A stretch of 64,000 nucleotides of DNA from Saccharicrinis aurantiacus (GTDB lineage Bacteria > Bacteroidota > Bacteroidia > Bacteroidales > Marinilabiliaceae). This document shows, one piece after another, positions 9,712-21,273 of the stretch. The notes beneath the pieces are model-generated. The model had not been told where the DNA came from and ran no database searches. It saw only the letters and a program-made list of their open reading frames with translations. The stretch covers positions 1-64,000 of the forward strand of contig NZ_LYBV02000027.1 of assembly GCF_001660705.2 (NCBI RefSeq). The letters are read 5' to 3'. Position 1 is the first letter of the stretch. The number at the start of each line of letters is the position of its first letter. Both the position numbers and the translations under genes were made by a program.

Positions 9712-10302
9712 ATGAAGTACATAAACCTCCTATCTATACTAGTAATTACCATTTCGTGTACAGCAAATAAAGGAAATAATAAAGCTATAGATGCCCTTAA
9801 TTCTGTAACTAGTAATACCGATGAAGTAATATCAAAACAAAAAAATACCACCGAGTTAAATGGTATTTATGAATATGTTTATCCTTACAATTCCGATGAT
9901 TTAATTGAAAATCATTACATCGCCTTTAAAACCTTAGGAAAAGAAATAGAGGGTTGGTATTACGGTACTTCTGATGAATTTGATGAGGCCAGGGAAGGGT
10001 ATCTACCTGGGTATTTTGTTTCAAGTATCAAACAATTAGAAACAACAACAGATTCTATATTCTTCACAATAGAAACGGGCTATAACAAGTGCTATGATCA
10101 GTCAATACCAATCGGTTTTGTTGATGCCAAGCAAATAAGTGCACACAATCAAGCTTGGGATGGATCTGATGATATAGAGGTAGTTGAGTACGCAGGGAAA
10201 CTTACAGAACAAGCTATTACAATTACTATAAACGGAGACACAAGAGTGTATACAAAAAGGAAAAATGATTTTAAATTGGGTATAGATAATCTAACAGACT
10301 AG
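9712..10302 (+). CDS. Small lipoprotein of unknown function
   Basis: I do not recognise this 196-residue protein. It carries a short lipoprotein signal peptide (MKYINLLSILVITISC, Cys at residue 16) followed by a Ser/Thr/Asn-rich linker, so it should be anchored in the membrane. The mature part contains LNGIYEYVYPYNSDDLIENH and FKTLGKEIEGWYYGTSDEF, suggesting a beta-rich fold. Bacteroidota hold many such orphan lipoproteins. It lies in the accessory stretch before the decarboxylase operon, with a 485-bp gap after it. Confidence 0.6.
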   Translation: MKYINLLSILVITISCTANKGNNKAIDALNSVTSNTDEVISKQKNTTELNGIYEYVYPYNSDDLIENHYIAFKTLGKEIEGWYYGTSDEFDEAREGYLPGYFVSSIKQLETTTDSIFFTIETGYNKCYDQSIPIGFVDAKQISAHNQAWDGSDDIEVVEYAGKLTEQAITITINGDTRVYTKRKNDFKLGIDNLTD

Positions 10303-10790
10303 TTAAGGCATGATATAATGTTTAATTAGTAAGCGGCGTACTACAATTTATGATTTTGTGTCTACCGCTTCTTGTTTTTTGCTCCGTAAGTTTCTGTTGA
10401 TTAGCTAAAGACTCTTTTGTCCAATCTATAAATACATCGCTATTTTCAAATACACCGGTAGGAATATTTTAAGCTGTAGGTAATTTATAAGAGTACAATC
10501 TCCACCTTAAGTATTTTGTTATCAGGTTTTATTGCCAATATTTAATGTAGGCAGTCATGCTCATTATACCCTATTAAGTGGTGGTTTAATGGGCTATCCT
10601 ATTTTTATAAGTCTTGCTTATAATTCTACGAGATGCTAATGCATTATAATGAGATTGATATTTGATCGATTTTTTGACAAAATTAGCATGCCATAATATT
10701 TTTACTTACTCAAGCTATCTGTCCATTTGTACAATAAATCATTCCTTTCACGCATAACTATTTTTAAGAACCTAGTATAAATCTACCTTG
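10303..10790. other. Gap before the decarboxylase operon
   Basis: 488 bp. It holds a possible minus-strand gene remnant at 10322-10468 and two exact direct copies of TTAAGAACCT exactly 40 bp apart (10764-10773 and 10804-10813), the second within the hairpin ahead of the decarboxylase start. No intact gene is seen. Confidence 0.5.
10322..10468 (-). pseudogene. Possible C-terminal gene remnant
   Basis: The minus strand holds an open run of 48 codons with protein-like composition (FENSDVFIDWTKESLANQQ, then KLTEQKTRSGRHK) ending in a TAA at 10322-10324. A stop in the same frame lies immediately upstream and no start codon fits. It may be the tail of a gene whose front has been lost. I do not recognise the family. 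An open run of this length can occur by chance in AT-rich DNA about once in fifty trials per frame, so confidence is low. Confidence 0.3.
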
Positions 10791-10820
10791 TGGTATATTC
10801 TAATTAAGAACCTTATACCA
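10791..10820 (+). promoter_or_regulatory. Hairpin directly upstream of the decarboxylase start
   Basis: TGGTATATTCT (10791-10801) pairs with AGAA plus TATACCA (10807-10820), with a three-base bulge and an AATTA loop. The stem ends six bases before the ATG at 10827, so in RNA it would cover the translation start zone; in DNA it is an inverted repeat suited to a dimeric repressor. Confidence 0.45.
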
Positions 10821-10826
10821 TATGAA

Positions 10827-12389
10827 ATGCTAACAAAAAATTTAACTCCTACAGGTCAAATTTATGACGATTACACATTAATACAAGAAAAAAATACAGA
10901 CAATCTTCAGCCTAACAAACAAGATCCTTTTAATCCGTATATTTTTAAAGAAACTACAAATCTAATAAGTGATCTTTTAGAGAAACATTTATTACAAACT
11001 GACACGCGCGGTTTAAAGCTTACTGACCCATCTGTTCTCACTGAAAGGGCCAAAGAAATGATGGTTGCTGAATCAAATTATCCGGCGTCTTTAGATGAAA
11101 ATAGACTATTATCTATTCTTAAGCTTTATTTAGAAACTGGCATTCCAGTGCAATCGAAAGGATATATGGGTCGCCAATTCTCGAGTCCTATACCATTATC
11201 CGGAATAACTGATTTTGTAAGTTCTATAATTAATCAACCTTCATCTTTTTATGAGGCAGCTCAGCTTCCCAATGTTGTTGAAAAAATAATAGCCAATAAG
11301 TTTTTTAAACTCTTTGGATGGAATAATAATTCTCCAGAAATGATAACCACGTCAGGCGGATCATTAGCTAATATGACGGCTATTTTAGCTGCGCGAAATA
11401 ATGCCTATCCTGATGTGTGGAAAGAAGGATATAATAAGAAATCAGAACTACTAAAGCCAGCAATTGCCGTTAGCGAAACTGCACATTATAGCATAACGCG
11501 TGCAGCTGGAATTTTAGGAATAGGTGAAAATCAGATTATAAAACTTGAGACAAATGATAAATATCAAATTGATATAACTAAGGCTATAATTACTCTAAAC
11601 CAAGCTAAAGCTAAGGGCTTAAATGTTTTTTGTTTGGTAGCCTCAGCCGGAAGTACCTCTGTTGGTGCAATAGATAACCTAGATGAGTTAGGTGCGATTG
11701 CAAAAAAAAGAGACATATGGTTTCATATTGATGGCGCACATGGAGGAGCTATAATTTTATCTGATAAGCTTAAAGATAAACTTAAAGGAATTGACCAGGC
11801 TGATTCAATTGTTATTGATGCACACAAAACCTTATTTGTACCGGGCACTTGTACCTTACTTTTCTATAAGAATAAGTTAAAAGCCAAGCAAGCCTTTCAG
11901 CAACAAGCCAGTTATGTGTTTGAAAAAGACGAAGACATTTATACCGCCTATGATAGCGCTGACAAAAATTTTGAATGTACCAAGCGACCTATGATTATGA
12001 ATTTATGGGTGCCATGGGCAGTGTACGGTAAATCTGTTTTTTCTAGAAAACTAGAATACCTATTTAAACTTACTCAGTTAGCATACAATACTATAAATAT
12101 CTCAAATGATTTTGTTGCCCACCATCAACCCGAAACAAATATATTTTGCTTTAGCTACAAGCCTAAAAATATAATTGACATAGATACTTACGATTTTCAG
12201 TTAGCCATAAGAGATGTGATTAAGCAAGATGGTAGGTTCTTTATATCAAAAGTGATGTTAGAGAATAAAACAGTTTTAAGAGTTGTTTTTATGAATCATA
12301 ACCTAAAAATAAGCGACTTCGAAAAACTACTTGATGCGATTAGGCTAATAGGTCAAAAATTACTTGAAAGTAAAAAACACTACAATTAA
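10827..12389 (+). CDS. PLP-dependent group II amino-acid decarboxylase
   Basis: A 520-residue cytoplasmic enzyme of the aromatic-L-amino-acid/glutamate/diaminobutyrate decarboxylase group. Seen: TSGGSLANMTAILAARN (175-191), the PLP-stacking His in VSETAHYSITRAAG (His 220), the acid pairing with the pyridine nitrogen in HIDGAHGGA (Asp 302), and the Schiff-base lysine in DAHKTLFVPGT (Lys 334). All catalytic residues are present, so it should release CO2 from an amino acid and leave an amine. The substrate cannot be read from sequence. The ATG at 10827 was preferred to a TTG at 10788 that would lie upstream of and inside the hairpin at 10791-10820. It is the first gene of a six-gene operon; 22 nt separate it from the next. 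Confidence 0.85.
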   Translation: MLTKNLTPTGQIYDDYTLIQEKNTDNLQPNKQDPFNPYIFKETTNLISDLLEKHLLQTDTRGLKLTDPSVLTERAKEMMVAESNYPASLDENRLLSILKLYLETGIPVQSKGYMGRQFSSPIPLSGITDFVSSIINQPSSFYEAAQLPNVVEKIIANKFFKLFGWNNNSPEMITTSGGSLANMTAILAARNNAYPDVWKEGYNKKSELLKPAIAVSETAHYSITRAAGILGIGENQIIKLETNDKYQIDITKAIITLNQAKAKGLNVFCLVASAGSTSVGAIDNLDELGAIAKKRDIWFHIDGAHGGAIILSDKLKDKLKGIDQADSIVIDAHKTLFVPGTCTLLFYKNKLKAKQAFQQQASYVFEKDEDIYTAYDSADKNFECTKRPMIMNLWVPWAVYGKSVFSRKLEYLFKLTQLAYNTINISNDFVAHHQPETNIFCFSYKPKNIIDIDTYDFQLAIRDVIKQDGRFFISKVMLENKTVLRVVFMNHNLKISDFEKLLDAIRLIGQKLLESKKHYN

Positions 12390-12411
12390 TCTATAATATA
12401 CAACTGCAGAA

Positions 12412-13953
12412 ATGACACAAAAAAAATGGACAGCCAGCGCTATTGAAGGTTTGGTTACTAAACTAATACCTGATAATGAATTCGAACCCAAATCGATAAC
12501 TGATGTAGTGAATCTTCCAACATTCAGAAGTAAGATGATGGCATGTGAAACACATTGTAATTTACCATACAATAAAATTCCTATAGAAATTCAGGATGCG
12601 CTGGTATTACGCCGACTACAGCAAGTAACAAATATAATAAAACTAAATGCTGTGTGGTTGCAAAAGCTAAAGGAGGCTGGGGTAAAAGAAACACCTAAAT
12701 CTTTTAATGAATGGCAAAATATGCCTTTATCAGATAAAGAAACTCAGAAGACTTTGTTCATGGGGGATAGACCTGGTTTAGTGGTTCCTTTAGAGTATGG
12801 AGGATTTGAGATTGTAGCAAGTGGAGGAACAAGTTCAGGAACTCCTGTAGAAACAGTGTATTCATTGCAAGAACTTGATGATACTTATAAAATTGCAGGA
12901 GATTTTATAGGAAAACACATGCTCAATAATTACCTCGATAACGATGAACCAAAGTGGGTTGCCACCACCTTAGCAGATTATCAGATGTGGAGCAGTGGTA
13001 CAATGGTTGGTGGTGTATTACAGAAAATACCAAATGTTAACTACATAGCTGCAGGTCCTCTTAGTTCAACAGTTTATCAGCATATGATGTCGTATAAAGG
13101 CTCAAAAGCCATTATGGCAATTTCACAAGGCATTGCAATGTTAAGTAAGTTAGGTGATAATATGTGTGAGGAATCACGTAAAAGCCTAAAAGTAGCCATG
13201 TATGGTAGTGGTGTTTTAACCAATTGCCAACAACAAGAATTAAAAGAAATGTATCCCAACGTTTCTATATTAAGCTATTTTGCGGCAACGCAAGCCGAAA
13301 CCATAGGTCTTCAACTCGATGCTAATTCACCTACACTGTCATCGGTCCCAGGCTTACATTTTATTGAAATAGTAGATGAGGATGGTAAGTGGGTGAAAGA
13401 AGGAGAAGAGGGAGAGCTAGTTATTACACGTTTGCATGCTAACGAAGCACCATTGCTGCGTTTTAAGCTTGGTGATAGGATGATTCGAAAACCTATTTTG
13501 AAAAGTAAAAACTTGGTAACTACACAATTTGAATTTGCGGGCAGAAGTGGTGATGTTATCCATTTAAACGACACGCAGTATTCAGCAAAATTGGCCTTTG
13601 AGGAGATTGCCAAAAATATGAAAGAGAATTTTAATCTAGATTTAAAAGATATTGCTAAAGAAGTGCAGTTTCTGAACTACAGAAAAGACTGTAAACTATC
13701 ACTATTGGTTATTAGCGAAGATTCTGATAAGTATAATAAGGCTTTAGCCAAGGCATTAGGAGATAACACACTAAAAGATACGTTCATTAACTCCTTAATT
13801 AATTCTCTACCCATATTTAATAAAACAGAGGCTAATCCGGCAAGTATTGAAAAAACTAAATACGATTTCGAAATCTTATTTGTTTCTGAAGATTCCGAAT
13901 TAAAGTTTACCACATCAGTTGGCAAAGTGCCTCTTATACGAGATATTTTTTAA
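12412..13953 (+). CDS. PaaK-like adenylate-forming enzyme (acyl/aminoacyl-CoA ligase type)
   Basis: A 513-residue ANL-superfamily protein closest in character to phenylacetate-CoA ligase and GH3-type enzymes. Seen: the P-loop-like motif VASGGTSSGTP (135-145), a possible second adenylate-binding motif in SYFAATQAETIG, the ribose-binding core LLRFKLGDRMI, and a C-terminal TTSVGKVPLI whose Lys would be the A10 lysine. It should activate a carboxylate with ATP to an acyl-AMP and then transfer it to CoA, an amine or a protein. No carrier-protein domain is attached or encoded nearby. Sitting 22 nt after a decarboxylase, one simple inference is that it conjugates an acid to the amine made there, but that is unproven. 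Confidence 0.75.
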   Translation: MTQKKWTASAIEGLVTKLIPDNEFEPKSITDVVNLPTFRSKMMACETHCNLPYNKIPIEIQDALVLRRLQQVTNIIKLNAVWLQKLKEAGVKETPKSFNEWQNMPLSDKETQKTLFMGDRPGLVVPLEYGGFEIVASGGTSSGTPVETVYSLQELDDTYKIAGDFIGKHMLNNYLDNDEPKWVATTLADYQMWSSGTMVGGVLQKIPNVNYIAAGPLSSTVYQHMMSYKGSKAIMAISQGIAMLSKLGDNMCEESRKSLKVAMYGSGVLTNCQQQELKEMYPNVSILSYFAATQAETIGLQLDANSPTLSSVPGLHFIEIVDEDGKWVKEGEEGELVITRLHANEAPLLRFKLGDRMIRKPILKSKNLVTTQFEFAGRSGDVIHLNDTQYSAKLAFEEIAKNMKENFNLDLKDIAKEVQFLNYRKDCKLSLLVISEDSDKYNKALAKALGDNTLKDTFINSLINSLPIFNKTEANPASIEKTKYDFEILFVSEDSELKFTTSVGKVPLIRDIF

Positions 13954-13970
13954 ATATAAAACTCTGAATT

Positions 13971-14384
13971 ATGAATACAACAAATATAAATATAGCTATT
14001 GATGTAATTGCAGCTCTATCAGATAAAACCCTAAGGGGAAACATATTTGTTATGGATGATGGTTTATTAAATAGCCGAAATAAAGGAACGGATCATTTAG
14101 TAACCGTTTGTTCTGCTGGGCAACTTATTAAATGGAGTATTTATGCAATCGATTTGCAAACACCTGTTTCTATAAAAAGTATATCATTTTCTCAAACAGA
14201 GAAAGATAATAATGAGGATATCCCCAATAACCACTATACAAATTTAGATTTAAACGAGTGGTCGGGGTATGTACCTAATTATCTATTGCCTAATAAACAA
14301 TATAAATACAAGCTTGAGTTACAGATGGGTGAAGGCCAGTATAGTATACTATCGATAGATTCTCTTTGTCTTGAACTAATATAA
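13971..14384 (+). CDS. AidA/PixA-like inclusion-body family protein 1
   Basis: A 137-residue cytoplasmic protein without signal peptide. It shows the pattern shared by all four small proteins of this operon: an opening strand ending in a Val/Ile-Asp pair (INIAIDVIAALSDKTL), an NIFVMDD strand, a GTDHLVTVCSAGQLIKW block, and a closing tryptophan plus tyrosine-lysine strand (LNEWSGYVPN, then KQYKYKLELQ). From memory this matches the AidA/PixA inclusion-body family (Xenorhabdus PixA, Ralstonia AidA), whose members form crystalline inclusions or are quorum-regulated and have no known enzyme activity. It starts 17 nt after the ligase stop. It is the shortest but one of the four. Confidence 0.6.
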   Translation: MNTTNINIAIDVIAALSDKTLRGNIFVMDDGLLNSRNKGTDHLVTVCSAGQLIKWSIYAIDLQTPVSIKSISFSQTEKDNNEDIPNNHYTNLDLNEWSGYVPNYLLPNKQYKYKLELQMGEGQYSILSIDSLCLELI

Positions 14385-14404
14385 ATCAACTTAATTCTGA
14401 AATA

Positions 14405-15190
14405 ATGCAAGAAATAACAGTAATAGTAATGATTGATACTCAAGCTGCGTTAGAAAATAACTTGCTTGAAGATCATATTTATCTAATAGATAATTTAAGA
14501 ACTGAAGGTTCTATCGGTGAAGGAACAAAAGATTTAACGTCTAAAGTGAATGGTGCCTATTGGTCTGACGGTTCTCAGGCTGGCGAATATTTATTTAATT
14601 GGCTGCCTTATCCCATAGCTTCTATATCGCCAATTCTACCAAAAACATATAAAAAAGATAGAGCTAAAGCGCATGACGTAACTAATCTTGAACGTCTGCA
14701 AAATATCGCTCAGTCCACAAAAGAAAATGCGACAAAAGATTTTTCTGAATTGACATCAAAAATAGGTAGAAACCTTAAAATAAAAAATGAATTGGGTGAG
14801 ATTAGTACCGCTAGTACAAAACTAATGGGCCTTAACGGGGATATATTGCCAAATAATTATAGCGACCCTGCTAATATGATTACACATCTAACCCCTCAAA
14901 TTACAAACATAACTGGCGAAGCTGTTGATAAAGGAATAATATACCCAGCACAGTATGGTACTCCTGTTCCAATAAAAGATGGGTGGTATTGGAGTGCATC
15001 AACTGCCTCAAAATTTGTAGGTACATATAAATACACAATGCACATTACGTTATTTAAACCATCGGTATCAAAAGGTGAAATAATTTGGACACCAAAGTAT
15101 TTTACTCACGATGCACAAATAGAAATTGTAAATGCACCCATGGTAAATGGATTTACAAAAGCAGGTGTTACTTTTCTACCGATTATATAA
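14405..15190 (+). CDS. AidA/PixA-like family protein 2, with a central insertion
   Basis: A 261-residue paralogue of its neighbours. The N-terminal part (VIVMIDTQAALENNLLEDHI, YLIDN, then GTKDLTSKV) and the C-terminal part (GWYWSASTASKFVGTYKYTM) align with the other three. Between them lies an insertion of about 110 residues (from KTYKKDRAKAHDV to PAQYGTPVPIKD) that is polar and helical with coiled-coil tendency in RLQNIAQSTKENATKDFSEL. No signal peptide. It sits 20 nt after protein 1 and 17 nt before protein 3. Family call as for protein 1, from pattern only. Confidence 0.6.
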   Translation: MQEITVIVMIDTQAALENNLLEDHIYLIDNLRTEGSIGEGTKDLTSKVNGAYWSDGSQAGEYLFNWLPYPIASISPILPKTYKKDRAKAHDVTNLERLQNIAQSTKENATKDFSELTSKIGRNLKIKNELGEISTASTKLMGLNGDILPNNYSDPANMITHLTPQITNITGEAVDKGIIYPAQYGTPVPIKDGWYWSASTASKFVGTYKYTMHITLFKPSVSKGEIIWTPKYFTHDAQIEIVNAPMVNGFTKAGVTFLPII

Positions 15191-15207
15191 ACCTAATATT
15201 TAAAGAC

Positions 15208-15612
15208 ATGAAAACAATAACAATAGTATCTGTTGTAGATGTGGTTGGTGCTTTAACAACCGATTCATTAGAAAATAATATTTATTTACTCGATAATAAT
15301 AAAAATGGAGGATCCAGTGAACTGGCTACCGAAACTCTAAAAACTAAAGTAAATAAGGGAGACACTTTATTATGGACCATTATGCCAATGGAGCCTGAAT
15401 CGTATTCTGCCATTGCTAATATTGAAATAGATAAAGCAGTCTGTGAACCAAAGCAATTAACTTACGAAGGATCTGATGTAACTTATTGGTCTGCTACTAT
15501 TAAAAAAGATTTTATTGAGGCACCCTATTCCATACATTTTAAATTGGGCAATAAAGAACATGTTGTAAAACCTAATAAAAATAGTAGACCTGCTTTAATT
15601 GGTAATAAATAG
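15208..15612 (+). CDS. AidA/PixA-like family protein 3
   Basis: A 134-residue cytoplasmic protein. It shows ITIVSVVDVVGALTTDSLEN, NIYLLDNN, LKTKVNKGDTLLWTI and VTYWSATIKKDF, the same order of motifs as its three neighbours, so it is a tandem paralogue. The ATG at 15208 was chosen: a longer frame starting with TTG at 15085 overlaps the previous gene by over 100 bp in another frame and adds a non-homologous, cysteine-rich start. The C-terminus (KPNKNSRPALIGNK) is short and basic. 17 nt separate it from the preceding gene and 30 nt from the next. Confidence 0.6.
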   Translation: MKTITIVSVVDVVGALTTDSLENNIYLLDNNKNGGSSELATETLKTKVNKGDTLLWTIMPMEPESYSAIANIEIDKAVCEPKQLTYEGSDVTYWSATIKKDFIEAPYSIHFKLGNKEHVVKPNKNSRPALIGNK

Positions 15613-15642
15613 CCAAATAGATACAATTATAAAATACCTATA

Positions 15643-16173
15643 ATGGAAAAAGATAAAAATAACTCAGTTAAATTTAACTCGGTACAGCTAAATATAGTCA
15701 CTTTTGTAGATGTACCTAAGGCAGATGTATACAATAGTTTAAGTGATGCTGTTTATATGTGCGACAATAATATAGAAAGTGAAAATCAAGGTACCAATGG
15801 CTTGCAAACATTGTGTAAAACTGGCCAAACGCTAAACTGGATTATTTACGCCATGGATAGCAAAAAAAAGCCAGACGGAACGTGGCCTCCATCAGCACGA
15901 ATAACAAATATTGTTTTTACTAATGCTGATGGAACAGACGTAGCTGATTTTAAAGTGTGTAACGAGCTAAAACTCATAGGTCCACCAGACGAAATGCGAT
16001 CGCCCTATACTCCTGTATACTATTATTGGGCAGCAACTGTGGCACCTATGCTCCCAGAAGGGATATATAAATACCGCTTAATTGTAGAGGTAGATACTCA
16101 AGACAAAACGTTTGCTTCAGGAAAGAAGAATTTAAATTTAAATACACCTTCATTAAAGGTATTGGCAGTTTAA
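15643..16173 (+). CDS. AidA/PixA-like family protein 4
   Basis: A 176-residue cytoplasmic protein, last in the operon. Motifs: LNIVTFVDVPKADVYNSL, AVYMCDNN, GTNGLQTLCKTGQTLNWII, a longer proline-rich middle, then YYYWAATVAPMLPEGIYKYR. Among the four it keeps the fullest version of the domain, closest in length (about 175-185) to PixA and AidA as I remember them. A charged 14-residue extension precedes the first strand. No terminator with a U-tract on the plus strand follows closely; the hairpins at 16274-16328 lie 100 bp downstream. Confidence 0.6.
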   Translation: MEKDKNNSVKFNSVQLNIVTFVDVPKADVYNSLSDAVYMCDNNIESENQGTNGLQTLCKTGQTLNWIIYAMDSKKKPDGTWPPSARITNIVFTNADGTDVADFKVCNELKLIGPPDEMRSPYTPVYYYWAATVAPMLPEGIYKYRLIVEVDTQDKTFASGKKNLNLNTPSLKVLAV

Positions 16174-16379: not shown

Positions 16380-18026
16380 TTAAGATAAAATCATACTCTT
16401 AATATCTTCCTCAACAGTAGTAATACCGCCAATACCGAAATTCTCGATAAGAATATTAGCCACATTAGGAGATAAGAAAGCAGGTAATGTAGGACCTAAG
16501 TTGATGTTCTTAACACCTAAACTTAATAAAGCTAATAATACAATAACCGCTTTTTGCTCGTACCAAGCAATGTTATAAACAATAGGTAAATCATTAATAT
16601 CATCTAAACCAAATACCTCTTGTAACTTAAGAGCAGTCACAGCAAGTGAGTATGAGTCATTACATTGTCCGGCATCCAATACTCTTGGTATCCCACCAAT
16701 ATCGCCCAAAGGCAATTTGTTGTAACGGTATTTAGCACAACCCGCAGTTAAAATAACTGTATCATCAGGTAATTCGTTAGCAAAATCAGTGTAGTAGTTA
16801 CGGTTGTTCATACGACCATCGCAACCTGCCATAACCACAAACTTTTTAATAGCACCACCTTTAACGGCGTCCACAACTTTGTCGGCCAATTGTAAAACTT
16901 GGTTGTGTGCAAAACCACCAATTATTTCACCAGTTTCAATTTCAATAGGAGCAGCACATTTTTTAGCATGCTCAATTATCGCACTAAAGTCTTTTTGCTT
17001 ACCCTCTGTTCTGTCGGCAATATGCGTACAGCCATCAAAACCACTCGCACCTGTAGTATAAACTCTGTTTTTGTAACTATCTGCCGGAGGAACAATACAG
17101 TTTGTAGTAAATAAAATAGGACCATTAAAAGTCTCAAATTCTTCTTTTTGTTTCCACCATGCATTACCATAGTTACCCACAAAATGCTCGTACTTTTTAA
17201 ACGCAGGATAGTAGTTAGCAGGTAACATTTCGCTGTGTGTATAAACATCAACACCAGTTCCATCAGTTTGCTTTAACAGCTCCTCCATATCTTTCAAGTC
17301 GTGACCCGAAATTAATATAGCCGGATTATTACGCACACCAATATTTACCGAAGTAATCTCTGGGTTACCATAGCTTTCAGTATTCGCTTTATCTAATAAA
17401 GCCATTACATCAACACCATTTTTACCACACTCTAAAACCAAACCAACCAACTCGTCGGCAGTAATTTCTTTATTTGTAGTTGCTACCAATGCTTTTTGCA
17501 TAAATTCAGCAACATCGTTATTCTCGTAACCCAAGTTAAAAGCATGCTCAGCATAAGCAGCCATACCTTTAACACCATAAGTTAATAATTCCTTTAACGA
17601 ACGGATATCTTCGTTCTCAATACTTAAAATACCAATTGCCGGAGCCACTTTTAAGAAATCCTCCATCGAATCTCCCTTATAGCTAATGCTATGATCTGTG
17701 TTTGTTACTTCAATACCTTTATCAGCAAGTTCAGCCTTAAGAGCATCGCGCAAAGCAATACCATCTTTAATTTTTGCTACAATTTTATTGGCATCAAAGT
17801 TGGCATTTGTAATAGTTATAAATAAAGCATCTACCATAAATTTGTAGGCAGCTTTACTGGCCATATCATTCTCAGCAGCCAACTGATTTACGTTAGCAAT
17901 ACCTTTCGAAACAAAAAGTAAAACATCCTGCAATGCGGCAACTTCATCCGTTTTTCCGCAAACTCCTTTAATTGTACAGCCTTCACCTTTCGCTGCTTCC
18001 TGGCATTGATAACAAAACATACTCAT
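16380..18026 (-). CDS. hcp: Hydroxylamine reductase / hybrid-cluster protein, class I
   Basis: Hcp is a cytoplasmic iron-sulfur enzyme that reduces nitric oxide to N2O, and hydroxylamine in vitro, and protects anaerobes from nitrosative stress. The 548-residue protein has the N-terminal cluster ligands C5, C8, C17 and C23 (C-x2-C-x8-C-x5-C), the arrangement of class I proteins of strict or facultative anaerobes, and the hybrid-cluster ligands in [19 protein letters not shown] and [10 protein letters not shown]. It lies downstream of a ferredoxin-like gene on the same strand; a 323-bp gap with a dispersed repeat separates them. No HcpR-type site is seen directly before hcp, so it may depend on the ferredoxin-gene promoter. 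Confidence 0.95.
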
Positions 18027-18082
18027 GACTAGATATTTAAATTGTTTATAATGGTTCTGATAATAAAAAATCTTCTATAATT

Positions 18083-18171
18083 ATTTTGGGCTTCCCCTGC
18101 GGGTCGGGCTATGCGCTATATCTTTGCTTCGCCAAAATGGGCTCACAAAGGATGCCGCTTCTATCCCTAAG
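18083..18171 (+). repeat. Dispersed intergenic repeat, copy B
   Basis: Matches the reverse complement of 111-200 over about 88 bp with one small indel and a few substitutions. The sequence begins ATTTTGGG and runs through CCCCTGCGGGTCGGGCT to CTATCCCTAAG. With the adjacent hairpin at 18193-18257 it may form a larger element of about 175 bp. Confidence 0.75.
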
Positions 18172-18192
18172 CCAAGCGTCATTTAAGTTTAT

Positions 18193-18257
18193 AATTAGTA
18201 GCAAGTGGCTTCCCAACAACACTATGCGCTCTCCATGAGCCACTTTAGCTACTAATT
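18193..18257. repeat. Large imperfect hairpin next to repeat copy B
   Basis: AATTAGTAGCAAGTGGCT (18193-18210) pairs with AGCCACTTTAGCTACTAATT (18238-18257) with a two-base bulge and a 27-base loop. It may be one end of a mobile repeat or an mRNA processing signal between the two genes. Confidence 0.6.
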
Positions 18258-18297
18258 AAAACCTAACCTAACCCTAAACTATTTTTTAAATTGTAAA

Positions 18298-18339
18298 TGA
18301 TAAGAAGCAATCTGTAATTGCGTTTATAACTTATCATTT
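18298..18339 (-). terminator. Hairpin after the ferredoxin-like gene
   Basis: ATGATAAG and CTTATCAT arms enclose an inner GCAAT/ATTGC helix. It starts just past the stop at 18350 on the minus strand and has no clear U-tract, so it may be a weak terminator or stability element. Confidence 0.35.
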
Positions 18340-18349
18340 ATATTGCTAC

Positions 18350-19228
18350 TTAAACCCAATCTTCACTCAATACTTCACCCTGAATAGACACAACTGCTCT
18401 CTTCAAAGGCACTTTTCTGCTCGCTAGCTGTACAGCTTGTTGTGCAATAGCCATTAAACCACCGCAACACGGAACTTCCATAATAACTACTGTTAACGAG
18501 TTGATCTTAGAATCGTTAATCAGAGTAATTAATTTATTTAAATAGGTCTCTTGTCCGTTATCTAACTTAGGACAAGCAATACCCAATACCTTATTTTTAA
18601 GGAAAGTAGAATGAAAATTACCCATGGCAAATGGTGCACAATCAGCTGCTAAAACCATATCAGCTCCCTGAAAGAAACTAGCTCCTGGGTTAATTAAATG
18701 CATTTGTACAGGCCACTGTTGTAATTCAGAACCACCTTGTTGTGGGGCAACTGACGTTGGCATAGTAAAAGCAGGACGTTTAATCTCTTGCGATTGTGAT
18801 CCTGGGCATCCGCCACCGCATCCACCTTCTTGAGGTTTATCTTCGGCGTGTATTGCATTTTTTAATTCACTCATTGTAAAATCTAATTCAGCTTCATGAC
18901 TACTTAAGTAAGCCATCGCTTCTTTTATAAAATCGTATTCGTTATGATCTTTTAAATGGCGCAGGTGAGCAACAACTGTATTAAAGCCTTTCTCAAGCAT
19001 CAATTTAATTACCGTTGTTTCGTTATACGGATCTGCTTCTCTTCGCTCAATTTCCATAGCACCCATTGGGCAATGTCCAAGACAGGCACCTAAGCCATCA
19101 CACATTAAATCAGAAATTAAACGTGCTTTACCATCAATAATTTGTAATGCACCTTCGTGGCAACCCGGAACGCATTCTCCACATCCATTACATAACTCTT
19201 CGTCTATTTTGATAATATCTCTTTCCAT
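18350..19228 (-). CDS. Ferredoxin-like iron-sulfur protein of the hcp locus
   Basis: Probable electron carrier or partner for Hcp, 292 residues, cytoplasmic. The N-terminus holds a complete [4Fe-4S] motif C13-x2-C16-x2-C19-x3-C23. The second motif reads CDGLGACLGHCP: C43, C49 and C53 are present but the second Cys is replaced by Leu46, so it may carry a 3Fe-4S or no cluster. After a cysteine/glycine stretch (GGCGGGCPGS), a C-terminal domain has further Cys (LAADCAPFAMG, GIACPKL, EVPCCGG). Such proteins sit beside hcp in several anaerobic Bacteroidota, as I recall. Its start faces the HcpR-like gene across a palindromic operator at 19285-19302. Confidence 0.8.
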   Translation of the reverse strand: MERDIIKIDEELCNGCGECVPGCHEGALQIIDGKARLISDLMCDGLGACLGHCPMGAMEIERREADPYNETTVIKLMLEKGFNTVVAHLRHLKDHNEYDFIKEAMAYLSSHEAELDFTMSELKNAIHAEDKPQEGGCGGGCPGSQSQEIKRPAFTMPTSVAPQQGGSELQQWPVQMHLINPGASFFQGADMVLAADCAPFAMGNFHSTFLKNKVLGIACPKLDNGQETYLNKLITLINDSKINSLTVVIMEVPCCGGLMAIAQQAVQLASRKVPLKRAVVSIQGEVLSEDWV

Positions 19229-19256
19229 TGCTAATGCTTTTTGTTTTTGTTCAATG

Positions 19257-19264
19257 CAAATATG
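19257..19264 (-). promoter_or_regulatory. Probable -7 box of the ferredoxin-hcp transcript
   Basis: Minus-strand CATATTTG, one mismatch from TAnnTTTG. The operator centre at 19293.5 lies about 36 bp upstream of its last base, near -42 to -44 of the expected start, a normal place for an activating Crp/Fnr-type regulator. Confidence 0.45.
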
Positions 19265-19284
19265 CGGCTTAAACTTTCCCTAGC

Positions 19285-19302
19285 TTGTAACGAATGTTAC
19301 AA
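19285..19302. promoter_or_regulatory. HcpR-type operator
   Basis: Perfect palindrome TTGTAAC-GAAT-GTTACAA between the divergent ferredoxin gene and the Crp/Fnr gene. It contains GTAAC-N4-GTTAC, which I recall as the site proposed for HcpR in Bacteroidota, clostridia and Thermotogales. Confidence 0.75.
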
Positions 19303-19347
19303 AACCAGTATTTATCATTAAATTTAAGCAATTAAATACTTAGATTC

Positions 19348-20025
19348 ATGATAAATAACTACCCTATAGTAATGCAGAGTCCTCTTTTTAAGGGGGTTGG
19401 AATGGATGATCTTAATAACGTTTTTTCTTCAATACATTATAGAATAAAAAAATACGATGCAGATCAGATAATCGCTTTTGAAGGGGATGAGGTGAAATGC
19501 TTATATATATTATTGAAAGGAAGTGTTAAAGGCGAGATGATGGACCCAAGTGGGAAAACCATTAAAATTGAAGATATTCTGCCTCCAAAACCTTTGGCTA
19601 TTGCCTTTGTATTTGGTAGTGCTAATAAATTTCCCGTAAATATTGTAAGCAACGAACCATCAGAGCTTTTAGTTATTGAAAAGGCCGACGCACTTAAATT
19701 ATTTAGTAATAATGAGCAAATCCTTCAGAACTTCTTAAATGTGATATCCAGTCGTTCGCAGTTTTTAACTCAGAAAATAAAAATGCTGTCCTTTCAGACC
19801 ATCAAAGGGAAGCTTGCCAATTTCTTTTTACAAGAGACGAAAGGTGAGGCTATTGATTTTGTGCTTAATAAATCACAAAATGCCTTGGCTGAGTTATTCG
19901 GAGTTGCTCGTCCTTCAATTGGTAGGGCATTTAAAGAGATGAATGATGATGGTTTTATACATATTAAAGGAAAATCAGTTCGTATTATTGATATTAAAGG
20001 ATTGCGTTCTTATTTAAGTACCTAG
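19348..20025 (+). CDS. hcpR: Crp/Fnr-family regulator, HcpR-like
   Basis: A 225-residue transcription factor: N-terminal cyclic-nucleotide-binding-like beta barrel (residues about 10-125), a dimer helix, and a C-terminal winged helix with HTH SQNALAELFGVARPSIGRAF (176-195). It lacks the N-terminal Cys cluster of Fnr; in the HcpR of other species the sensor is thought to be heme. Divergent placement from ferredoxin-hcp and the TTGTAAC palindrome between them mark it as the nitrosative-stress activator of the locus. The ATG at 19348 is 45 nt beyond the operator, so it could also regulate itself. Confidence 0.8.
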   Translation: MINNYPIVMQSPLFKGVGMDDLNNVFSSIHYRIKKYDADQIIAFEGDEVKCLYILLKGSVKGEMMDPSGKTIKIEDILPPKPLAIAFVFGSANKFPVNIVSNEPSELLVIEKADALKLFSNNEQILQNFLNVISSRSQFLTQKIKMLSFQTIKGKLANFFLQETKGEAIDFVLNKSQNALAELFGVARPSIGRAFKEMNDDGFIHIKGKSVRIIDIKGLRSYLST

Positions 20026-21065: not shown

Positions 21066-21139
21066 GGTTTTGTAGCATAATTGGATAGTGCACCTCGTTA
21101 CGGCCGAGGAGGTTGGGGGTTCGAATCCCTCCAAAATCA
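21066..21139 (+). tRNA. tRNA-Arg (anticodon ACG), first copy
   Basis: A full cloverleaf: acceptor GGTTTTG/CAAAATC, D stem GCAT/GTGC, anticodon stem CCTCG/CGAGG with loop TTACGGC (ACG), T stem GGGGG/CCCTC with loop TTCGAAT, discriminator A. CCA is not encoded. A34 would be converted to inosine by TadA. Confidence 0.95.
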
Positions 21140-21180
21140 CATAAACATCTAGTGAGATGTTATTATAAAATTGAAATAAT

Positions 21181-21254
21181 GGTTTTGTAGCATAATTGGA
21201 TAGTGCACCTCGTTACGGCCGAGGAGGTTGGGGGTTCGAATCCCTCCAAAATCA
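21181..21254 (+). tRNA. tRNA-Arg (anticodon ACG), second identical copy
   Basis: Identical over all 74 bases to the copy at 21066-21139, 41 bp downstream and in the same transcript. It is followed by a terminator at 21274-21308, so the two form a dedicated tRNA unit. Confidence 0.95.
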
Positions 21255-21273
21255 CGAAATATATTTCATTTGT

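Follow-up and report, generated by a model that had tools for sequence, protein, structure and literature searches.

The closest described relatives of the small proteins reported here are MakC and MakD of the Vibrio mak operon (NCBIfam NF049870; PDB 8rqy and 6tct), which are encoded by small, adjacent genes and occur there in two copies together with a tripartite toxin. In the accessible part of PMC11484084 both are described as cytosolic, unsecreted proteins that crystallize as dimers and do not bind lipids, MakC is reported to form large complexes in cells upon crosslinking, neither protein is given a known biochemical role, and the discussion regards toxin-associated MakC/MakD as confined to V. 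cholerae. A second described group are the inclusion-body proteins of the PixA/AidA type (PF12306; PDB 4lzk); the available portion of PMC9060813 calls PixA poorly understood and, for the aidA/BCAS0292 pair, does not contain the word decarboxylase. PixA and AidA, too, are not known to have a biochemical function. Here we report a cassette found in a stretch of 64,000 nt from Saccharicrinis aurantiacus (NZ_LYBV02000027.1, positions 1 to 64,000, hereafter the window). Instead of two copies and a tripartite toxin it combines four fixed paralogues, A to D, with two enzymes, a pyridoxal phosphate (PLP)-dependent decarboxylase (dec) and a PaaK-type acyl-adenylating enzyme (lig). The cassette is apparently a real, widespread and undescribed six-gene system, on the best reading an operon for making and coupling a small molecule. 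We know of no described system with this gene make-up. An earlier reading of the window from its letters (the sequence-only reading) had likewise known of none, and no description was found among the literature matches listed, a search to which subscription papers and preprints are largely external.

Layout and distribution of the six-gene cassette

Analysis of open reading frames (ORFs) placed the six genes on the plus strand at 10827-16173 in the order dec, lig, A, B, C, D, with intergenic gaps of 22 (dec-lig), 17 (lig-A), 20 (A-B), 17 (B-C) and 30 nt (C-D). The two enzymes and four small proteins proposed by the sequence-only reading are thus all present as ORFs, and the close spacing that it gave as 16-30 nt holds as well, with 17 rather than 16 nt as the measured lower bound. 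The start of dec is the in-frame ATG at 10827 (the listed ORF opens at a TTG at 10788) and its stop ends at 12389; C starts at the ATG at 15208, the mechanical ORF list opening it at a TTG at 15085, within B. A scan for promoters and terminators gave no excess over shuffled sequences (29 found against a mean of 29.6, and 2 found against a mean of 3.7).

The sequence-only reading had named the lack of a conserved neighbourhood in related genomes as a ground for refuting it, a test that its grouping passes. All six genes keep an identical order in 83 of the 84 loci, which represent seven phyla, and the remaining locus (L100) stops inside lig at a contig edge; so constant an order is more than chance. 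The 84 loci comprise 79 from a one-genome-per-species scan with the lig alignment, obtained from the best 80 of 89 confirmed matches, together with the window and four loci from a plasmid collection. Grouped by record titles, 46 belong to Actinomycetota, 14 to Pseudomonadota, 12 to Cyanobacteriota and 9 to Bacteroidota, with one each in Aminicenantes, Acidobacteriota and Chloroflexota; the window is counted under Bacteroidota, its lig falling among theirs in the tree. Relatives of MakC/MakD with no toxin in their operon are therefore spread over seven phyla, which widens the view of toxin-associated proteins exclusive to V. cholerae. In the plasmid collection, tblastn found the cassette at 47-54% identity in Nonomuraea, Sinorhizobium and Bradyrhizobium, with the same gene order in the four records fetched, whereas matches in Selenomonas (H8) and Burkholderia stagnalis (H9, L039) are distant PaaK-like sequences (24%) and were excluded from the cassette count. 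The Nonomuraea record (L035, NZ_LT559118.1, 11.85 Mb) is filed as a plasmid and, judged by its size, is probably a chromosome.

The MakCD-related family is rare in the genome samples searched. In a reverse test, genomes were searched with the MakCD family at E <=1e-4. For the order of L048, 4 of 245 genomes matched and all carry the cassette (the centre genome, those of L057 and L068, and one new); for the phylum of L056, 2 of 319 matched, namely the centre genome and another that has a quartet near a contig start, its enzyme region out of view; for the class of L097, 2 of 318 matched, the centre and one genome without a cassette that has a single weak match of 28.9 bits. Searches of the window's own family (1/71) and phylum (1/395) returned its own genome only. 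With lig as the query, 70 other genomes of the window's family gave weak matches of the PaaK type at most (the best being 1.7e-9 at 22% identity), and 394 other genomes of the class sample gave no match at 1e-15. Vibrio, with MakC/MakD, provides the known case of the MakCD family without the cassette. The weakly matching gene of the cassette-free genome in the class of L097 (L150 5814-6284) stands alone and may link PixA/AidA with MakCD.

The lig tree tracks the phyla closely, with 7 label changes against a minimum of 6 and a shuffled mean of 34.7 (83 rows, L100 omitted; quick method), and the cassette lies on one mobilizable and one conjugative Bradyrhizobium plasmid. Because the tree follows the phyla, the cassette is rare and plasmids carry it, these observations suggest that it is old, sparsely retained and sometimes mobile.

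The decarboxylase and the ligase

Residue conservation was read from alignments of loci <75% identical in lig; 31 were chosen, of which 29 including the window were used in alignments A2-A6 and 27 in A7. Two plasmid-collection loci are omitted, A7 also omits L054 (cut) and L102 (fused), and L102 is represented by its first, unfused lig copy. The catalytic residues that the sequence-only reading had called complete in both enzymes are invariant throughout, in 27/27 aligned members for dec and 29/29 for lig.

The first gene (dec, 10827..12389, plus strand) encodes 520 amino acids and matches Pfam PF00282 at 8.4e-53. Its best database matches are glutamate and aspartate decarboxylases (GAD1, PDB 3vp6, 2.4e-51); the NCBIfam PanP model matches at 1.3e-49, under that model's cut-off, and among the matches listed dec reaches the cut-off of no NCBIfam model. 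Its invariant residues are His220, Asp302, Lys334 and Arg485, which we take to be the stacking histidine, the PLP aspartate, the PLP lysine and the carboxylate arginine, respectively. By family score and these four residues dec is a group II PLP-dependent decarboxylase. It resembles the named members of that group (GAD, CSAD, PanP, diaminobutyrate decarboxylase) in the catalytic set and in overall alignment, a likeness drawn from alignment rather than from a tree of named enzymes, and differs from them in lying below every listed NCBIfam cut-off. The glutamine and serine of an N-Q-L-S segment are common to dec and human GAD, and in GAD both are presumably placed at the distal acid group of the substrate. 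This glutamine (Q117) is invariant in 27/27 aligned dec sequences and present in human GAD, whereas the diaminobutyrate enzyme 8zpi has Met; the serine is also present in 8zpi. A YD-x-x-DK-x-x-x-C loop is found in dec and human GAD and is missing from 8zpi. In this glutamine and this loop the pocket of dec resembles that of GAD, and we infer that the substrate of dec is an acidic amino acid.

Sequence matches of the second gene (lig, 12412..13953, plus strand, 513 amino acids) are weak and PaaK-type, with NCBIfam FlxY at 5.9e-11, and its 29-row profile matches PDB 4r1l at 1.3e-14. An AlphaFold model of lig (predicted local distance difference test, pLDDT, 86.3) is best matched in Foldseek by PaaK-type ligases (E 1.5e-25; putative acyl-CoA ligases, PaaK1/2, CoA standing for coenzyme A), followed by hydroxyisobutyryl-CoA ligase, NatL2, ClxA and AjiA1, with GH3 amido synthetases lower. 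The invariant residues Ser137-Gly-Gly-Thr140, Glu296, Asp355, Arg378 and Lys505 presumably represent the adenylation motifs including the C-terminal lysine, and with the ANL fold of the model they place lig among PaaK-type adenylating enzymes. PaaK1/2, BT_0428, NatL2, ClxA and AjiA1 share this fold and these motifs, although they are only 12-18% identical to lig in structural alignments. A further LADYQMWSSGTMVGG block is seen in the cassette ligases, and its invariance is partly by construction because the locus search used the block. The acceptor of the activated acid may be CoA or an amine, with the nearest structures favouring CoA; NatL2 and ClxA, structural relatives of lig, are to our understanding CoA-independent. 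The accessible parts of PMC7204872 and PMC12519233 connect both with the making of esters or amides.

In Kordia (L102) a second dec and lig form one uninterrupted ORF of 1047 residues (L102 7342-10482), and the dec-lig pair is tandemly duplicated in four flavobacterial loci (L101, L102, L105, L115). Because of this fusion and joint duplication dec and lig behave as a unit, and the gene structure suggests that the two enzymes act as a pair.

The four small proteins

The remaining genes encode A (13971..14384, 137 amino acids), B (14405..15190, 261 amino acids, with an extra helical insert), C (15208..15612, 134 amino acids) and D (15643..16173, 176 amino acids, with an N-terminal extension visible in the alignment), all on the plus strand. 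Their mutual relation, claimed earlier from a shared order of motifs, was found in all six hhalign pairs with E values from 1.7e-13 to 3.1e-35, against 0.14-0.69 in controls that paired A-D with the two enzymes (n=8). All four show significant homology to MakC/MakD through NCBIfam MakCD NF049870 (A 58.5 bits, E 6.4e-16; B 37.7 bits, E 1.9e-9; C 74.6 bits, E 6.6e-21; D 41.8 bits, E 9.4e-11) and by profile belong to the same family, but every copy lies under the curated cut-off of 110 bits, in the window as in 37/37 cassette genomes searched. The profile of C matches MakC 8rqy at 6.2e-20 and MakD 6tct at 3.4e-16, and that of D matches MakC 8rqy at 2.4e-9.

The sequence-only reading had called the four proteins AidA/PixA-like. 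Their relation in fold is supported by a model of B, the one protein modelled among the four (pLDDT 85.5), but their nearest family is MakC/MakD (NF049870) and not PF12306: against the PixA gathering cut-off of 21 bits C scores 14.6 bits, and A, B and D have no match at E <=1. A strict filing under PixA/AidA was rejected on this ground. In Foldseek the B model matches MakC 8rqy at 5.9e-7, MakD 6tct at 1.6e-6 and PixA 4lzk at 1.9e-5 (probability 1.00, template modelling score, TM-score, 0.58 by target), the last match placing the predicted structure within the PixA fold. TM-scores to MakC/MakD are 0.72-0.73 normalized by these targets and 0.38 by the insert-bearing query. The insert is modelled as two helices at residues ~82-119; its length is highly variable between loci, and it is almost missing in L061.

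In 83/83 loci each of the four small genes scores highest with the uniterated seed model of its own position, assignment being by position and seed models to which five of the 83 loci supplied seeds. A tree built from 124 small proteins sets each of A, B, C and D apart from the rest by a single branch, with support of 83, 99, 98 and 96, respectively, in the Shimodaira-Hasegawa-like approximate likelihood ratio test (SH-aLRT; quick method). By these comparisons each of the four small proteins forms an orthologous group of its own, and because the tree separates them, the duplications that gave rise to them seem to predate the dispersal among phyla. NF049870 matches per cassette genome never exceed four (four in 31 and three in 6 of the 37 searched of 79). 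Since the set of four is fixed and each member is kept in 83/83 loci, A-D are best explained as a putative obligate hetero-oligomer. In the record of L080 gene A appears as two overlapping pieces (10230-11105), perhaps through a frameshift, either genuine or confined to the record.

Possible functions and neighbouring genes

An isochorismatase-type hydrolase gene lies <=1.5 kb from the cassette in 26 of the 84 loci, on either side and either strand, for example at L036 15937-16497, L045 6552-7112 and L079 12965-13582; its domain is PF00857 in both of two cases tested. It accompanies 11 of the 12 cyanobacterial, 8 of the 14 pseudomonadotal and 7 of the 46 actinobacterial loci, and none of the 9 of Bacteroidota, window included. 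At least 1.5 kb of sequence is present on both cassette sides in 72/84 loci. The flanks total ~1,017 kb (window excluded), of which ~240 kb lie within 1.5 kb, and beyond that distance a single weak hydrolase match of 60.5 bits was found.

From these components we tentatively propose, at somewhat less than even probability, that dec and lig convert an acidic amino acid into an amine and couple this amine, and that a hetero-oligomer of A-D binds the product or stores it. In such a pathway dec, whose class is clear, would strip the alpha-carboxyl group from a substrate of the aspartate, glutamate or cysteine-sulfinate type and leave a small amine that keeps its acid group. Then lig, likewise firmly classed, would adenylate the carboxylate of this product or of a second acid to yield an amide or thioester. 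The A-D paralogues, with their MakCD fold, may assemble into a cytoplasmic hetero-oligomer for binding, protecting or storing the product, and the isochorismatase-type hydrolase, where present (not in the window), may serve as an accessory that cleaves the conjugate for release. The anatomy of the loci, with the dec-lig fusion and co-duplication, the PaaK fold and the amidase-type neighbour in 26/84, agrees with an amine or amide conjugate bound by A-D and does not prove it.

Several points weigh against this proposal. No isochorismatase-type hydrolase lies inside 1.5 kb in 58/84 loci, among them the window; because eight nearby members served as seeds of the hydrolase profile, near matches are favoured and the near/far contrast applies to this subfamily only. 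The species scan required the exact lig peptide LADYQMW or TMVGGVLQ, and divergent ligases, with or without A-D, escape it. Because the best structural matches of lig are CoA ligases, a thioester product would be at least as likely as an amide. For ligand binding by A-D the argument is one of fold and gene linkage, and we came upon no relative whose ligand is known.

A bolder version of the proposal, which we regard as fairly unlikely, is that A-D form an enzymatically loaded, four-component cytoplasmic body that would be charged with the dec-lig product, or carry it as a covalent modification, and release it on demand. If true, such a body would represent a novel type of particle for storing or delivering metabolites in bacteria, and it would hint at a role for the entire PixA/AidA/MakCD superfamily. 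Alternatively, A-D may be PixA-like protein inclusions or storage bodies, with the enzymes in a separate and merely co-transcribed pathway. The match of the B model to PixA 4lzk is in line with this, as is the classing of PixA proteins as inclusion body proteins in the accessible text of PMC9060813, but the unmet PF12306 cut-off and a gene set too constant in 83/84 loci for a chance partnership make it distinctly unlikely. The constant tie of the four proteins to two enzymes supplies the PixA/AidA/MakCD superfamily with constant metabolic partners and makes its function directly testable.

We give the same low weight to a role of A-D as catalysts or enzyme partners, that is, as tailoring or channelling subunits in a biosynthesis rather than binding or storage proteins. 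Each group has invariant polar residues of its own (D61 and Q63 in A, N65 in B, E62 and E64 in C, D41 and N42 in D), and B carries a strongly conserved block, GEAVDxGVIYPAQYGSP. A protein of Shewanella oneidensis that carries the title of an aspartic peptidase, SO1698 (PDB 3njm), resembles the B model in fold with a Foldseek probability of 1.00, but the match is weak at E 1.3e-3, and no sequence link was found. We take SO1698 to be the self-cleaving DUF1888 protein. To our knowledge no catalytic motif fits the invariant polar residues of A-D, which counts against catalysis, as does the lack of a known activity for MakC/MakD in the available part of PMC11484084.

Still less probable is a Mak-like accessory role, in which A-D would regulate other proteins, stabilize them or act as their chaperones, much as has been proposed for MakC/MakD with the secreted toxin subunits. 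MakC/MakD are indeed the closest family, and the accessible text of PMC11484084 reports lower MakB and MakE and an impaired secretion of MakA when makC and makD are both deleted. The constant partners of A-D, however, are metabolic enzymes. No pore-forming toxin-type gene was found in the six-gene operon with Pfam and NCBIfam, and the seven flanking genes of the window gave no tripartite toxin match in Pfam (five belong to other families and two have no match); the flanks of other loci were compared for recurring families only, not scanned for toxins. A filing as a Mak-type toxin accessory was rejected on the gene set. Least probable of all is a defence system against phages or competitors: the distribution is rare and patchy and rhizobial plasmids carry the cassette, in two cases with toxin-antitoxin genes no more than ~10 kb away, but a PADLOC search of eight proteins gave no specific defence-system match, only weak ones (dec to DndA at 2.5e-5 and SspA at 2.9e-5, A to a restriction enzyme model at 0.0019), and lig matched nothing in 50,697 phage records, the flank genes not having been scanned for defence families. 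A phage origin was rejected on the same lack of lig matches.

Single-linkage clustering of the flank ORFs gave clusters of which many, among those listed, are spurious GC-rich ORFs; the isochorismatase-type hydrolase is the only one listed that is cassette-close in three phyla. Other phylum-spanning clusters lie at scattered distances and strands, including a response-regulator type in 5 loci and an ABC-transporter type in 11. A gene for a class I aminotransferase separates lig from A in three bacteria that are distant relatives of one another (L041 5006-6202, L046 10515-11753, L049 10543-11730), and Crocosphaera (L042 4088-4636) has at the same place a frame of 183 residues with no NCBIfam match. 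Some cyanobacteria carry an acetyltransferase-like gene downstream of the cassette, also with no NCBIfam match. In the window the cassette is followed at 16380-20025 by a gene of the prismane/carbon monoxide dehydrogenase family and one for a 4Fe-4S protein, both on the minus strand, then by a plus-strand Crp-type regulator, and two tandem tRNA-Arg(acg) genes with a spacing of 40 nt are located at 21066-21255.

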